This document shows, one piece after another, positions 16,927-57,537 of a stretch of 64,000 bases of DNA (position 1 is its first letter; each line of letters starts with the position of its first letter). Position numbers and translations under genes: made by a program. The DNA comes from an uncultured Clostridium sp. (GTDB taxonomy: Bacteria; Bacillota; Clostridia; TANB77; CAG-508): NCBI GenBank assembly GCA_930989765.1, contig CAKNNA010000002.1, positions 26,000 to 89,999 of the forward strand. The letters are read 5' to 3'. The notes under the pieces are model-generated. The model was given only the letters and a program-made list of their open reading frames with translations. It was not told the DNA's origin and made no database searches.

Positions 16927-17011
16927 AAACATTTTTTAAAAATTTTGTATAATAAAAAAATCCATAGAAACAAAAATATAATTAAAATATGAAGAAGAGT
17001 TCTAAAATACT

Positions 17012-17242
17012 AAAAGAGACGATAATGTCTTGAAGTTAAGACTAAAAGTATTGATATATCTTAAAATGCAGTGACGCACAGTTTGGGAGGATGCAAATTA
17101 GTATAGACCAGTCCAGCGCAACTTCTCAAATTTTGAATCTATTACTATAGTTATTTATATGATATGTCCGACCAGCAAGGAACGGAATTTTAAGATATAT
17201 CAATACTTTTAGTCTTAACTTCAAGACATTATCGTCTCTTTT
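17012..17242. repeat. foldback element with 56-bp inverted repeat arms and ~119-bp centre
   Basis: arms 17012-17067 and 17187-17242 are perfect reverse complements by eye. Confidence 0.85.
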
Positions 17243-17265
17243 AGGACACTCTCTTCTTTAAAAAA

Positions 17266-18870: not shown

Positions 18871-18971
18871 TGGTTAATCAGGGACAGGTCCCGAGTGACC
18901 AAAAATGGTTAATCGGGACCTGTCCCCAATTAACCATTTTTGGTCAGTCGGGACCTGTCCCCAATTAACCA
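18870..18971. repeat. foldback repeat containing gggacaggtccc units
   Basis: ggttaatcagggacaggtcccgagtgaccaaaaatggttaat paired with attaaccatttttggtcagtcgggacctgtccccaattaacc. Confidence 0.8.
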
Positions 18972-24682: not shown

Positions 24683-24798
24683 AATCTGACCTCCATTATT
24701 AAATTTATAGTTATTATATAGATAAGTTCAACAAAAATCAAGTATTTTCGACAATTTTTATTGTCCATTTGGGTATCCATTTGGGGACGTCCATTTGT

Positions 24799-24895
24799 GT
24801 CCATTTGGGGACAGTTACATTTTGGACATTTTGCCAAAAACTGTTAATAACAAATTCTAACAAAATGTCCAAAATGTAACTGTCCCCAAATGGAC
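24799..24895. repeat. 35-bp inverted repeat (gtccatttggggacagttacattttggacattttg)
   Basis: arms 24799-24833 and 24861-24895. Confidence 0.85.
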
Positions 24896-24896
24896 A

Positions 24897-26948
24897 TTAA
24901 TTATTAATCAAAGGTATAATAATATAAAATGTTGTTCCTTCACCTTTTTTACTATCAAATTTAATATCACCACCAAAGTGAGCCTTTATAGTAGAATATG
25001 ACATATATAAACCTAAACCAGTGCCATTTTTACCTTTTGTTGTAACCATCTCACTAAATAGCTTTGATTTTACATTTTCATCAAGTCCTGTTGCATAATC
25101 TCTAACCACAATTATTAAATTATTATTTTCATCTTTAGAAACTGATAAATCAATATTTTGCTCTGTTTTACCTTCATAAGCTTGAATAGAATTAGAAATC
25201 ATATTATTTATAACTTGTACTAAACTATTTATATCACCATGTAATATTGTATGATTATCTACATTAATAGAAACATTCAAATATATTAAAGCATTTTTTA
25301 ATTCATGTTTCATTAAAATATTAACTCTTTTAATTAATTCTTCTATATCAAAGGTAATATTATCAGCTTCAGAAAGTGTTACTGCTTGTCCTTTTACGGC
25401 TGTTATAACATCAGACATATAACTTGTATAATCTTTAACCTTTTCAAGCCAAGAGTCCATATCTTTTGCAATTTCATGATGGTCAGTAGAAGTTACTTGA
25501 GGATCATCAATAGAAGAATCATATTCAGAAACTAAATCCTTTAAACCTTCAACAGCACCAGAAATAGACATTATAGGAGTTTTTAAGTTATGTGCTATTC
25601 CACCAATTAATTGACCAAGGGAAGCCAAGCGTTCTTTTTCCATAAGCATACTCTGGTTTTCATGAATTTTTTCTATATTTTTAATAGTTAATTCTTGAAT
25701 TTTATTGTAATAATATGATAAGTCACCAAATTCATCATTAGAAACGATAGGTAATATTCTATTTTTATCTTGTGATTCTGCATCTAGAATATCTTTTAAA
25801 CTTGCAGTTGTCTTAATTAAATTATTTGATATATTTCTAGACCAAATATATAATAATATAGAATATACTACTAAAATTATAAGTATCAATTCAAAATAAT
25901 AAATAAGTAATTCAGAATCTATAACAGGATATTTAAAACCAAAATACCAAGTATTGCCTTGAGAATCTTTCATATCAACAGTATAAAGTTGTTCATCTAC
26001 ACCAAAAGCTTCGTAAAGAATACCACCTGTTTTTTCATAAAAGAAATCCCTATATTTCAAAACAAAATCACTTATAGATCCATTAGGATTAGAAACATAT
26101 ATTTCTTCATCATTTGGAGTTATTATAAAATAATAATCAGAACTTGATTGTAAAGGAATTGAAGATAAAATGTCTTTTAATCCTTCAAGAGAAACATCTT
26201 CAGTATCAATTTTTGCCATTTCTATATAAGCCTTGTAGTAATTAGCAGTTGCAAAACCCTCTTGTTGTACAGCCTTTGAATATCCAATTAAAGAAATTAC
26301 AATTAAAATAACAGTAATAAATGGAATCATCTGAAATAGCAAATTTTGAGAATTTGTTATACGATATCCAATATTTTTTTCATATGTTTTGCAAACATCA
26401 TAAGTAGATAATATAACACTATAAAGCATTTTTTGAGTTCCTATTAATAAAATCATAGAAATAATAGAAGCTATAACTATAATCATTAAAGTAAACTTCA
26501 ATATAGCAAAAGACGAAACAAGCATAATAAAATTAAATAAAATACCAATTGCAATTATTAAAATCATTTGTACAAAAAATACTTTATATGGAATATTTAT
26601 ACAATCTCTTCTAACATCTCTAATTTCAGAATATGATATTTTTTTATTTGAGTAATATTTTTGTAGATACTTAAAAATCCTTTTCATTAAAACAAAAAAT
26701 GATAAAGTATGTAAAAATACACACAATACATAAGCAATCATATATTGCTGAATATGTGTAAGTTCAGGCAACTCTTTTTGAAAAGCAATTGTCTCTGAAT
26801 AAGGCGGAAAGTTTTGAACAAGAGGCATTATATAATACACCAAACATACGGCAACAGCATCTACAACTAAAACCATTAGTAAAAACTTAAGTTTAAAATT
26901 TGTTACTTTCTTTTTTACATTATTTGTTTCTTTAACCAAGTTTAACAT
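24897..26948 (-). CDS. membrane sensor histidine kinase
   Basis: multiple TMs, HAMP-like, GQLIGGIAHNLKTPIMSI H-box, NMISNSIQAYEG N-box, GTGLGLYMS. Confidence 0.92.
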   Translation of the reverse strand: MLNLVKETNNVKKKVTNFKLKFLLMVLVVDAVAVCLVYYIMPLVQNFPPYSETIAFQKELPELTHIQQYMIAYVLCVFLHTLSFFVLMKRIFKYLQKYYSNKKISYSEIRDVRRDCINIPYKVFFVQMILIIAIGILFNFIMLVSSFAILKFTLMIIVIASIISMILLIGTQKMLYSVILSTYDVCKTYEKNIGYRITNSQNLLFQMIPFITVILIVISLIGYSKAVQQEGFATANYYKAYIEMAKIDTEDVSLEGLKDILSSIPLQSSSDYYFIITPNDEEIYVSNPNGSISDFVLKYRDFFYEKTGGILYEAFGVDEQLYTVDMKDSQGNTWYFGFKYPVIDSELLIYYFELILIILVVYSILLYIWSRNISNNLIKTTASLKDILDAESQDKNRILPIVSNDEFGDLSYYYNKIQELTIKNIEKIHENQSMLMEKERLASLGQLIGGIAHNLKTPIMSISGAVEGLKDLVSEYDSSIDDPQVTSTDHHEIAKDMDSWLEKVKDYTSYMSDVITAVKGQAVTLSEADNITFDIEELIKRVNILMKHELKNALIYLNVSINVDNHTILHGDINSLVQVINNMISNSIQAYEGKTEQNIDLSVSKDENNNLIIVVRDYATGLDENVKSKLFSEMVTTKGKNGTGLGLYMSYSTIKAHFGGDIKFDSKKGEGTTFYIIIPLINN

Positions 26949-33258: not shown

Positions 33259-33287
33259 AGAGCCATAGTTGCCAATGGTTGTCAATG

Positions 33288-33502
33288 GTTGCCAATGGGG
33301 ACGGAGATAAATGGCAATATTTGGGGTGAACTTTGGGGACGTTCCTTAAAGTTCATTTTCTTGCATATCCCAAGATAGTAGTTAACTTAGAAATTGCTAT
33401 TTTGGCCAGTTGATCTGGAAATATACGCAAAAAATGAACTTTAAGGAACATCCCCAAAGTTCACCCCAAATATTGCCATTTATCTCCGTCCCCATTGGCA
33501 AC
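33288..33502. repeat. long foldback with ~70-bp arms
   Basis: gttgccaatggggacggagataaatggcaatatttggggtgaactttggggacgttccttaaagttcatttt and its near-perfect inverse. Confidence 0.88.
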
Positions 33503-33595
33503 CTTTGGAACTTTTTTACAGTTTTACGTTTGTATTAAAAAATTCTCACATATGCAGTTTAAAAAAAGAAAATAATGTAAATAATAAAACAAGAG

Positions 33596-34890: not shown

Positions 34891-35571
34891 TCAAAATTGT
34901 CCATATTTTCTTAAAGTTTCTCTGCTTATATTTAATATTTTTTCCATACTTCTATAAGATACATTAAAATGTCTTAAGTATTTTACAATAATACTTAATT
35001 CATGTTTATTTTTTAGTAAATTTTCTATATTGATATTATTTACATTTATATAATTTTTTATAATCTCATCATTAGTTTCATTATCTACATCTATAAAAAT
35101 ATCTTCTGTTTGAATATTATCTGGCATATATTGTCGATTTTCAAGATAATTTGAAAACTTATAGTCCTCACGTTTTAAACAAATTCCAGCCTTCACAGGA
35201 TTATTATAAATATAATTCATACAAGAATAAAATTGTTTTTCTGTATAAATTCCTTCACTTTTATATCGATCTCTAAATAAATATCCTACTCTATCATATT
35301 TTCTATTATAGTACTTTGCATATTTAGTATTTAACCTTTGCATGAATTTACTCAAAATTTGCGTATTGTTAGTATGTATAAGTAAATGGGCATGATTATT
35401 CATAATACAATATGCTATAACATTGACATCTAGAATTTGTTCTAATTCTTTAATTTTATTGATATAATAAATAATATCGATTTCGTAATTAAAAATATAA
35501 CTTTTATTTAGCCCTTGAACCATAATATGAAAAAAAGGTGTTTTATTAATATTCCTAGGGGACCTTGACAT
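34891..35571 (-). CDS. REP-associated-type Y1 transposase (RAYT-like)
   Basis: FFHIMVQGLNKSYIF, YCIMNNHAHLLI (HUH-like), FMQRLNTKYAKYYNRKYDRVGYLFRDRYKSE, YIYNNPVKAGI. Confidence 0.88.
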   Translation of the reverse strand: MSRSPRNINKTPFFHIMVQGLNKSYIFNYEIDIIYYINKIKELEQILDVNVIAYCIMNNHAHLLIHTNNTQILSKFMQRLNTKYAKYYNRKYDRVGYLFRDRYKSEGIYTEKQFYSCMNYIYNNPVKAGICLKREDYKFSNYLENRQYMPDNIQTEDIFIDVDNETNDEIIKNYINVNNINIENLLKNKHELSIIVKYLRHFNVSYRSMEKILNISRETLRKYGQF

Positions 35572-35645
35572 AAATCTCTCCTTTACTAAATTTTCCCCTT
35601 ATCTATAATAACACATCTTTTTTTGTTTTTAAAGGTTTTTTAAAA

Positions 35646-37028: not shown

Positions 37029-40000
37029 ATGTATTTAAAAAGATTAGAAATGCAAGGATTTAAATCATTTGCAGATAAAACAGTATTAGAATTTAAAAGT
37101 GGAATTACAGGAGTAATTGGGCCTAATGGCTCTGGAAAAAGTAATATATCAGATTGTATTAGATGGATATTAGGTGAGCAAAGTATGAAATCCCTAAGGG
37201 GAGCAAAATCTCAAGATGTAATATTTGCAGGAACACAAAACAGAAAATCACTAGGTTTTGCAGAAGCATCACTTGTTTTTGACAACCAAGATGGAAAATT
37301 ACCAATAGAATACCAAGAAGTCACAGTAACAAGAAAACTTTACAGAAGCGGAGAAACAGGGTACTATATAAATAAAGTTCCATGTAGACTAAAAGATGTA
37401 CTAGAATTATTTATGGACACAGGAATTGGAAAAGATGGATATTCAATAATAGGCCAAGGAAAAATAGACGAAATTTTAAGCAACAAATCAGAAGATAGAC
37501 GCCATATATTTGAAGAAGCAGCAGGTATTGTAAAATATAGAATAAGAAAACAAGAATCTGAAAAGAAACTAGAACATACAAAGCTAAACTTACTTAGAAT
37601 AAATGATATTCTAACAGAAATAGAAACAAATTTAGAGCCATTAAAAATCAGTTCAGAAAAAGCAAAAACATATTTAAATTTAAGAGAAGAGTTAAAAAAT
37701 ATAGAAATAGGAGTATTTTTATACAATATAGATAAATACAAAGAGCAAATTGCAGAACTTACAAAAGATGAAGATATAATGCAATCACAATGTAATGATG
37801 AAGAAGGTAAACTTGAAAAAATAAAAATGCTAAAAGAAGAGCTAAAAAGCCAAATAGATGAAATTACAGCAAAAATAGAAGAAATTTCAGGTTTAGGGTT
37901 TGAAAGCAAAAAGGAAATAGAAGTACTAACATCAAATATAAATGTAGCAAAAACCAAAATAACAAATAACAAAGACAATATAGAAATGTTTAAAAAAGAG
38001 ATAGAAGTAAATACTGCAAAACTAAAAGAATTAGAAGAAGAAAAAAATCAAAAAGAAGAAAAGAAAACAAACTTAAAAGAAAATAGAAAAAGATTTGAAG
38101 AAGAGTTAAACCAAAAAGAAAAAGAGCTAGAAGAAATAACAAAAACACTGTCTGCAAAAGAACTAGAAATAGAAGAAAATAAAAAGAAAATAGAAAATAT
38201 GCAAGACAAAAAATATGAAATTCAATCAAATCTTAGCACAAAACAAGCAAACTTCCAAAATAATGAAAAAAGACAAAATCAAATAAAACAAGAAATAGAA
38301 ACAAACATAATAGAACAAGACAAAATAAGAATGCAAAAAGAAGAAATATCAAAAGAATTTTATGAAATAGAACTTTCAAGAAATAACAAAATAAAAGAAA
38401 AAGAAGAAATAGCAAATAAAAAAGAAGAAGCCGGAAAAAAACTAAAAGAATATGAAATATTAAAAAATAACCTAGAAAATGATTTAAGAATAAAAATATC
38501 AAGACAAAAATTTCTTATAGAAACAGAAAAAGAAAAAGAAGGATACATAAAAAGTGTAAAACAACTGCTAAAAGATTGCAAAACAACAAAAGAGCTAGGT
38601 GAAGGAATGTGCCGGAGTAATTGCAGAAATAATAGATGTAAAAGAAGAACTTCAAACAGCAATAGAAATAGCCCTAGGTGCAAGTATGCAAAACATAGTT
38701 ACAAAAACAGAAGAAGATGCAAAAAAATTAATAGAATACTTAAGGGTTAACAACTTAGGAAGAGCATCATTTCTACCTATATCATCAGTTAAAGGAAAAA
38801 AATTAGAAAAATTTAAAACACTAAAAAAAGGTATAATAGGAATAGCATTAGATTTAGTAAAATATGATAAAAAATACGAGCAAATAATGCAAAGCTTACT
38901 TGGAAGAACAGTAATAGTAGATGATATGAATACAGCAATAATGCTTGCAAAAGAAAATAACTATTCATTTAGAATAGTAACAAAAGAAGGAGACATAATA
39001 AACCAAGCAGGGGCAATTACAGGAGGCTCTATTAGCAAAAAAACAGTAAATATTTTAGGAAGAACAAAAGAAATAGAAAGACTTGGAAACGAAATAGAAG
39101 ATTTAAAAGCAAAAATAGAAAAAATAGAAAAAGACGAAGAAGAATATACAAATCAAGTAGAAGGCACACTAGAAATTGCAGAAAATATAGAAAGCAAATT
39201 ACAAGAAATAGAAATAGAATATGCAACTAAAAAACAAAAAATAATTTTAGTTGATGAAAATATTGAAAAAATAGAAAAAAGAATAAATATTTTAAAACAA
39301 GAACAAGAAGAAATAAAAAATGAACAAGAAAAAATAATAAATATGCAAAAAGAAATGCAAAATGAGCAAGAAGAAATAACAGCTAATCTAGAAATATTAT
39401 CAAAAAAAGTAGCAGAATATTCTGAATTAAACAAAGAAAGCCAAGAATATATAGATAATTTAAATTCTGATATAACAAACTTAAAAATATCTGTTACATC
39501 ATTTGATGAAAGCAAAAATTCAATAGAAGAAATACAAGAAAGAATAGAAAAAGAAATAGAGCAAAGCAAAAAAAATATTGAAAACAAAAATCAAGAAATA
39601 GATAAATCAACTAAAGAAAATATAATGCTAGAAAACGAAATTAATAAAACCTACGAAAAAATAGAAAACATTAAAGAAGAAGTATCAAAAAGCAGTTCTA
39701 AAATAGAAAATTTGAAACAAGAAAGACAAGAAAAAAATGAAAAAATATCAAAACAAGAAGAAGAAATAACAGAAAAATTTAATATAATAGAAGACTTAAA
39801 AGCAAAACTTGTAAAACTAGATGTAAGAAAAACAAAACTTCAAGAAGACATAAATGAAATTATAAATAAAATGTGGGAAGAATATGAACTTACTCCAAAT
39901 ACTAAAACAGAATATGAAAAACCAACAAATGTCCAAGAAGCAGTAAAAAAAGTAAATTATTTAAGAGAACAAATAAAAAACTTAGGCAGTGTAAATATAG

Positions 40001-40575
40001 ACTCAATCGAAGAATACAAAAACTTAAAAGATAGATATGATTTCATGAGTGAACAAAGATTAGATTTAGAAAGCACAATGAGTAAATTAAGAAAAATAAT
40101 CTCAGAAATGACACAAATAATGAAAGAACAATTTAAAGAAAAGTTTAAAATGATAAACAAAAACTTCAATGACAGCTTTAAAGAATTGTTTGGAGGAGGA
40201 AAAGCAGAATTAAAACTAGAAGACGAAGAAAATCTTTTAGAATGTGGAATAGAAATAACAGTAGAGCCACCAGGAAAAAAATTACAAAGTATGACTTTGC
40301 TTTCAGGTGGAGAAAAAGCACTAACTGCAATAGCACTATTATTTGCAATTCTAAGAATTAACCCATCACCATTTTGCGTATTAGACGAAATTGAAGCAGC
40401 ACTTGATGATGTTAATGTTTACAGATATGCAGAATACTTAAAAAAATTTGCCAAAGACACACAATTCCTAGTTATTACTCATAGAAAAGGAACTATGGAA
40501 GTTGCAAATACAGTTTATGGGGTAACTATGGAAGAAAGCGGTATTTCTAAGTTATTATCTATTAAACTAAACTAA
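37029..40575 (+). CDS. smc: chromosome segregation protein SMC with one +1 shift at CGG (38613-38615)
   Basis: MYLKRLEMQGFKSFADKT, IGPNGSGKSNI, C-terminal LLSGGEKALTAIALLFAI, FCVLDEIEAALDD; shift gives KELGEGMC-GVIAEIIDVKEELQTAIEIALGASMQNIV. Confidence 0.93.
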
Positions 40576-40647
40576 GTATATTATTTAGAACTTTGGGGAT
40601 GTTCCTTAAAGTTCATTTTTTTGTGATTCGTGGTCTTAAAATAGACC

Positions 40648-40858
40648 GCTGGAAAAAGACAATATATATAATTTAAAAATATAAACGGCTCCTTCCATAG
40701 CATAAGAATTTCTAAGTAATTTTTTTGGCACCCTTTCTGCATAATTTTCGTATAACGAAAATTTCCGAACATTTTCCAAAAAAATTACCTAAGAAATTCT
40801 AATGCTATTCCAGTCGCACATTTATATTTTTAAATTATATATATTGTCTTTTTCCAGC
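40648..40858. repeat. nested-stem structured element, copy A
   Basis: shares cggctccttccatagcataagaatttct...gctattccagtcgcaca core with 57008-57224; arms covary. Confidence 0.85.
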
Positions 40859-40970
40859 TTCTCTATATTTTTAATTTATACTCATTATTTATATTGATAA
40901 GTGTAAATTTAATATTATTCAATTTATAACAGTCATTTTTCTCCGTTCCCATTGGCAAGATAGGATATTC

Positions 40971-56897: not shown

Positions 56898-57007
56898 GTT
56901 ATAGTTTTTATTTTTGGGATAAAACATGTTTTGGTGGTAGAATTTGTAGTTTAAATAAGAGCTGTAAATTAAACTTACAAGTTACTATTCGCGGACAAAA
57001 ATACACC

Positions 57008-57224
57008 GCCTTAAGTGAGTTCAATATATATAATGTTAAAAATATAAACGGCTCCTTCCATAGCATAAGAATTTCTAAATAAACTTTTTGGCACCCTTTC
57101 TGCATAATTTTCGCATAACGAAAATTTCCGAACATTTTCCAAAAAGTTTACCTAAGAAATTCTAATGCTATTCCAGTCGCACATTTATATTTTTAACATT
57201 ATATATATTGAATTCACTTAAGGC
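57008..57224. repeat. nested-stem structured element, copy B
   Basis: same core as copy A with different but self-complementary arms. Confidence 0.85.
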
Positions 57225-57537
57225 TTCTCTACATTTTAAAATTGTTCGTGAATTGTAACTACTAGCAAATATTATAAAGAAAAGTTAACATAAGTATTGA
57301 TTAATTTTAAAAAATATGATAAAATAGAAGCCAATAGTTTAAATAAAAAATTCACAAAAACAAAGCAAGCATAGTAATACAAGAAAAAATAACACATATA
57401 ATTAAAAAAAGTGAATTAAAAAATAAAACTTTTAGTTTTGCAAAAAGATGGCTTAAAAAAGAAATTACAACAAGACTTAAATAAAAAGATTTAAGTTAAA
57501 AGCAATAAAGCAAGGTAAAAGTTATTTTTGTATATGA

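Follow-up and report, generated by a model that had tools for sequence, protein, structure and literature searches.

Two long hairpins in the genome of an uncultured Clostridium sp. differ from each other in the sequence of their stems, while each remains complementary to itself. The question raised by this locus is whether such paired change reflects selection on a folded structure or the copying of one arm from the other. The window, the whole stretch of 64,000 nucleotides analysed here, contains both hairpins where a sequence-only reading had placed them (40648-40858 and 57008-57224), and the differences on which that reading rested are confirmed: the outer arm blocks are not the same (GCTGGAAAAAGAC versus GCCTTAAGTGAGTTC), nor are the inner helices, and each is self-complementary within its own copy. 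The most probable answer, held with reasonable confidence, is that the hairpins are non-autonomous fold-back MITEs whose arms are homogenised by template switching around selected unpaired motifs.

Anatomy of the two hairpins

Copy 1 folds at -96.3 kcal/mol (z -16.7) and copy 2 at -93.5 kcal/mol (z -15.8), and with such z scores, equalled by none of 200 shuffles in either case, the window hairpins are far from chance. They are the only full members of the family that a covariance model finds within the window (133.8 and 132.5 bits). The coordinates first assigned to them are correct, but the elements are longer than was then described, since copy 2 carries terminal repeats further out (Table 1). 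The terminal repeats of copy 1 are degenerate, and its similarity to copy 2 reaches approximately 40622-40885; the 8-bp duplication flanking copy 2 is no longer recognisable (3/8 match). Also outside the original limits lies an asymmetric motif pair common to both copies, AATAnACCGC / GCTTCTCTA, which in its copy 1 form is found in three further copies (L018, L020 and L021).

The outermost 13 bp of the left outer arm of copy 1 are copy-specific, and a single-base insertion in copy 2 (g/c) is matched in both arms. Inside the arms of the window copies, ATAGCATAAGAATTTCTAA and TAAGAAATTCTAATGCTAT form a helix, and an inner helix that is particular to each copy, an internal loop and a tip hairpin are also present; the inner internal loop is the best-conserved part of the element family.

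Table 1. Coordinates of the two elements in the window, and copies elsewhere that illustrate arm and core behaviour
Feature	Position or loci	Strand	Remarks
Copy 1, nested hairpin	40648..40858	+	orientation set by GGCACCC...GAACATTTTCC core
Copy 2, full element with terminal repeats GTTACTATTCGCGG ... CGTGAATTGTAAC	56981..57259	+	
Copy 1, left outer arm	40648..40685	+	partner 40821-40858; 38 nt, 100% complementary
Copy 2, left outer arm	57008..57048	+	partner 57184-57224; 41 nt, 98% complementary
Copy 1, inner internal loop, left strand GGCACCCTTTC	40727..40737	+	right strand GAACATTTTCC at 40767-40777
Copy 2, inner internal loop, left strand GGCACCCTTTC	57090..57100	+	right strand GAACATTTTCC at 57130-57140
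Copy 1, outer asymmetric motif AATAGACCGC	40640..40649	+	opposite GCTTCTCTAT at 40857-40866
Copy 2, outer asymmetric motif AATACACCGC	57000..57009	+	opposite GCTTCTCTAC at 57223-57232
Spacer (core) inversion between arms	L215/L231, L230/L242, L155/L253		locus pairs
Copy-specific arms, near-identical cores	L162, L163, L165, L167; L068, L072		in G001; in G091

Distribution of the element family

The host genome is low in GC, comprises 1.78 Mb in 87 contigs and encodes LPXTG and dockerin proteins. A covariance-model search of this genome and its relatives, the check that the sequence-only reading had called for, brought many further copies to light. The model, built from 35 copies, gives 13-14 matches in the host genome (~13 copies, the window pair included), where BLAST detects approximately 10 full or partial copies. 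Matches extend to 74 of 100 genomes in the genus, some of which hold at least 31 scored candidates, and to 56 of 146 genomes in the bacterial family, spread over 21 of its 39 genera, while none of the 397 genomes sampled from the rest of the phylum matches. The prospect that the pair would have no other copies is thereby excluded, as the element is multicopy in the host genome, the genus and the family. The copies read for this study, 203 distinct ones from 48 genome groups, are part of a much larger number.

Searches of Rfam at curated and relaxed thresholds returned only generic plant-miRNA-like hairpin matches far below cut-off. Plasmid and phage records yielded no match by BLAST, and no viral contig carries the exact loop motif; with no match in those records, a plasmid, phage or viral-contig origin was rejected. 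The copies apparently represent an undescribed group of small mobile DNA hairpins that is family-wide in uncultured AT-rich bacteria.

Covariation of the arms

In the alignment of 35 copies, 92.3% of cells pair, and the covariation score is 0.479, compared with 0.055-0.105 when the partners are slid. Double-changed cells number 212 in the core alignment against about 10 G·U cells, G-U pairs making up ~1% of paired cells there and 2.7% in the arms. The outer arms vary from copy to copy, even where the cores within one genome are near-identical, and yet they match within each copy; perfect runs, compared over 96 non-redundant arm pairs, have a median of 20 bp and top values of 98, 91 and 87 bp.

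Changes in place can be followed between orthologous insertions. Across 15 such pairs, 25 columns have changed identically in both arms, where ~0.14 would be expected if the arms were independent, and 47 columns have changed in one arm. Although the four-way alignments have flaws and re-insertion may account for a few of the loci, the excess is still very large. Such matched changes could in part be re-insertion or conversion from another copy. Moreover, the core is reversed relative to its flanks in two of seven orthologous pairs from sister genomes G053 and G082, the arms being otherwise almost identical, and in-place core inversion is also seen in G049 compared with G076 and G037.

The earlier proposal, that the covariation implies either selection on structure or a copying mechanism templated on one arm, can accordingly be divided: the covariation is real and family-wide, and for the arms it is the copying that is favoured, on account of the few G-U pairs, the matched orthologous changes, the core inversions and the perfect runs of up to 98 bp, whereas the loops still need selection. 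Polymerase template switching between inverted repeats is described as leading to both arm homogenisation and spacer inversion (PMC8604942), and a second report describes template switching as able to create and maintain hairpin stems (PMC8794818). The most likely reason that the arms stay complementary while changing fast is the recopying of one from the other, and their covariation looks to be mainly DNA copying and not RNA selection. Covariation is usually taken as proof of a functional RNA; here much of it appears to arise from a mutation process on DNA palindromes, in a family in which empty sites and in-place inversions are visible, and the copy set could serve to gauge how closely template switching imitates RNA covariation.

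An unlikely alternative is that the element encodes a functional structured RNA, either a dispersed small RNA or an intergenic mRNA element, with helices kept by compensatory mutation and mobility only secondary. Strong covariation around conserved unpaired loops is the classic pattern of such an RNA, but it loses its diagnostic value if one arm serves as the template for the other. Arm mismatches comprise 92 G-T and 53 A-C, a mild wobble excess on the + strand (p = 0.0015) that leaves room for selection on the folded strand too, and co-orientation with tandem genes is weak (48 versus 24, p = 0.006), falling to 32 versus 21 (p = 0.17) under stricter gene calls, so that this bias depends on the gene-length cut-off. 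Neither lean is predicted by pure DNA copying, and together they leave space for a strand-specific role. The scarcity of G-U pairs nevertheless speaks against a structured RNA, as do the flipping of the core in place between sister genomes, the difficulty of keeping perfect copy-specific stems of such length pair by pair, and the lack of an Rfam match. Moreover, in some copies (L143/L168) one arm alone has decayed, which indicates that pairing is not maintained everywhere; broken pairing, which the sequence-only reading had set down as evidence against its claim, is confined to some decaying copies.

One intergenic neighbourhood holds a copy in seven species (L005, L022, L075, L143, L168, L172 and L065), with unrelated arms and cores that are sometimes inverted; either one old insertion has been rewritten where it stands, or the site is a hot spot for insertion.

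Insertion and the search for a transposase

Many copies carry the terminal inverted repeat GTTACAATTCACAGC at both ends, and 20 of the 69 elements bounded by such ends are flanked by perfect 8-bp duplications, where ~0.3 would be expected from a control rate of 0.48%; the signal is present at length 8 and at no other length. In addition, three insertions in G053 can be compared with empty sites in the sister genome G082 (L218/L255, L224/L257 and L222/L259), which contain neither the core nor either arm. Mobility, proposed at the outset as something to be checked, is established by these empty sites and duplications: core and arms go in together, and, as with cut-and-paste transposons, an 8-bp target duplication flanks copies that have retained ends of the GTTACAATTCAC type. 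Of 205 copies, 187 are not inside open reading frames.

Between its terminal repeats the element measures 230-480 bp and is dominated by its palindrome, which makes it too short to hold a transposase gene. No autonomous copy with the element's ends was found, small contigs and contig ends included. The IS1595 transposase is absent from all 12 genomes tested, and those of IS256 and IS66 are rare (two genomes each); with no matching partner, movement by any of the three was rejected. RAYT genes are present in 10/10 genomes tested, one of them inside the window. Y1 enzymes are not known to give target duplications and so do not explain one of 8 bp. Some subfamilies end otherwise, with the REP-like AGGGGACGTTCCTT in G001 and G066; like the failure to find an autonomous partner, these other ends count against the MITE explanation.

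It is decidedly improbable, though worth weighing, that the family consists of DNA read as a folded single strand, in the manner of integron attC sites or REP hairpins, and that the 8-bp duplications belong to the ends of one subfamily. Conserved unpaired motifs within variable stems would suit this explanation, as would the REP-like ends of some subfamilies and the presence of RAYT genes in every genome tested, RAYT transposases being known to act on single-stranded hairpins (PMC8266576). Against it, exact duplications of 8 bp suggest ends of the double-strand cut-and-paste kind, and the RAYT gene of the window has a different REP upstream.

In G018, L278/L279 have the ends and arms of L275/L277 but no core. 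The idea that the arms are derived from the host, the core entering the centre of existing palindromes (terminators, REPs or short MITEs) or duplicating its target in inverted form, can draw on these core-less palindromes and on identical cores with unrelated outer arms within one genome (G091, G001), but it is very improbable, because the arms are missing from the empty allele at three insertion sites and therefore travel with the element, which rules out copying from target DNA, because copies at different sites in G064 and G035 share arms, and because loss of the centre explains the core-less palindromes equally well.

A set of elements of 60-89 bp (L282, L283, L286, L287 and L288) has GTTACAATTCACAGC ends and no hairpin core, and several of them have 8-bp duplications.

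Conserved unpaired loops and a probable mechanism for arm homogenisation

Conservation per column reaches 98% and 95% in the two strands of the inner loop and ~90% in the AAGAAnTTCTAA helix, and lies between 49% and 76% in the other helices. At least two forms of a second loop are seen, CGGCTC.../...CAATCACATTCG and TCGTTCAAG.../...TTTCAATTC, and this loop is also combined with other inner cores (L284, L285 and L293), so that the family looks modular. None of the 158 copies with the asymmetric inner loop is homogenised, a biased test in that copies were found partly via this motif; a pattern for the homogenised loop has 12 matches, and the five listed look like chance matches in AT-rich coding sequence. 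As homogenisation should erase mismatched loops and the loops persist, something probably reads them. Candidates are the transposase, a protein of the host and some role of the transcript or folded strand itself, and what recognises these invariant unpaired motifs is a testable question.

In the fold-back MITE explanation, which is the one preferred here, the element would be a MITE whose entire length is an interrupted palindrome, moved by a transposase that we infer to be supplied in trans. Replication through so long a palindrome would occasionally switch template between the arms, a step for which the indirect evidence is strong; each switch would recopy one arm from the other, so that complementarity is kept while the sequence drifts, and would sometimes flip the core between the arms. 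Two unpaired motifs, GGCACCCTTTC/GAACATTTTCC and CGGCTC/CAATCACA, appear to resist homogenisation and so would be under selection. As to what recognises them, the best guess, and the weakest step, is either a host protein or the mobility machinery, acting on the hairpin when it is extruded or single-stranded. A further-reaching version, offered tentatively and rather less likely than not to hold in full, would treat the family as modular mobile hairpins whose identity resides in the unpaired motifs of the folded strand, whose double-stranded arms can vary freely and are continually rewritten from each other by template switching, whose core flips in place between two orientations, and whose folded DNA or RNA, and not the arm sequence, is read by transposition or a host process.

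Two further observations concern the surroundings of individual copies. Upstream of L006 (G000:C35:8291-8372), a 33-bp unit with the outer motif (TTTAAAATTAGGCCGC) forms three tandem repeats just outside the copy. L065 and L066, both in G013, have lost the right outer arm and run into one identical, unrelated hairpin-rich sequence, which suggests exchange between element families.

Relation to known systems

The best explanation of the element is a mobile palindrome, a variant of the bacterial MITE that is restricted to one bacterial family. Like bacterial hairpin MITEs such as Correia/NEMIS, ERIC and RUP (PMC2229807), it is small, multicopy, intergenic, non-autonomous and foldable, with terminal inverted repeats and a target duplication. 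It differs from them in outer arms that are copy-specific, extend to ~110 bp and evolve in concert, and in a core whose conserved, mismatched loops extend across an entire bacterial family. REP/BIME sequences with RAYT (TnpA-REP) share with it intergenic palindromes, conserved stem irregularities, the presence of RAYT genes and, on some copies, REP-like ends (PMC8266576). REP hairpins, however, are much shorter than 230-480 bp, carry GTAG and have no 8-bp duplication, whereas the GTTAC-type ends of this element carry such duplications.

The likeness to template-switched inverted repeats (PMC8604942) and RNA hairpins (PMC8794818) lies in arm homogenisation, multi-base matched changes and spacer inversion; those cases are described in yeast genes and RNA genes, and here the process would recur on a mobile element family. 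Integron attC sites (PMC3053210; PMC8266576) are alike by analogy, in that they are folded hairpins in which unpaired bases matter and stems are variable. In contrast to attC, no cassette array is seen, the copies are scattered with target duplications, and the ends GTTACAATT do not fit the GTTRRRY of attC core sites (RYYYAAC/GTTRRRY). The eukaryotic fold-back transposons Galileo and Tm1 (PMC4168063, PMC3169594) resemble the element by having very long inverted repeats that make up much of their length; compared with them, the present element is bacterial and much smaller and has a conserved mismatched core.

Other features of the window

The SMC gene occupies two overlapping frames (37029-38750 and 38599-40575), whose products match profile positions 1-520 (N-terminal) and 523-1181 (C-terminal), respectively; the split is a frameshift or an assembly error. 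A 225-bp palindrome with 77-nt arms (97%) and REP-like TGCCAATGGGGACGGAGATAAATGGCA and GAACTTTGGGGACGTTCCTTAAAGTTC lies at 33283-33507, ~1.4 kb from the RAYT-type transposase gene at 34891-35571 on the - strand (NF047646, under the curated cut-off), and its REP recurs upstream of that gene, near 35645. At 17010-17244 lies a nested hairpin whose 63-nt arms (97%) enclose a mismatched centre of another kind (GCAGTGACGCACAGTTTGGGAGG / GTCCGACCAGCAAGGAACGG); it may be one more element built like the two copies described above. Long palindromes at 24793-24901 and 18871-18971 carry GGGGACAG/CTGTCCCC and GGGACAGGTCCC motifs, and the host genome as a whole is rich in long hairpins.
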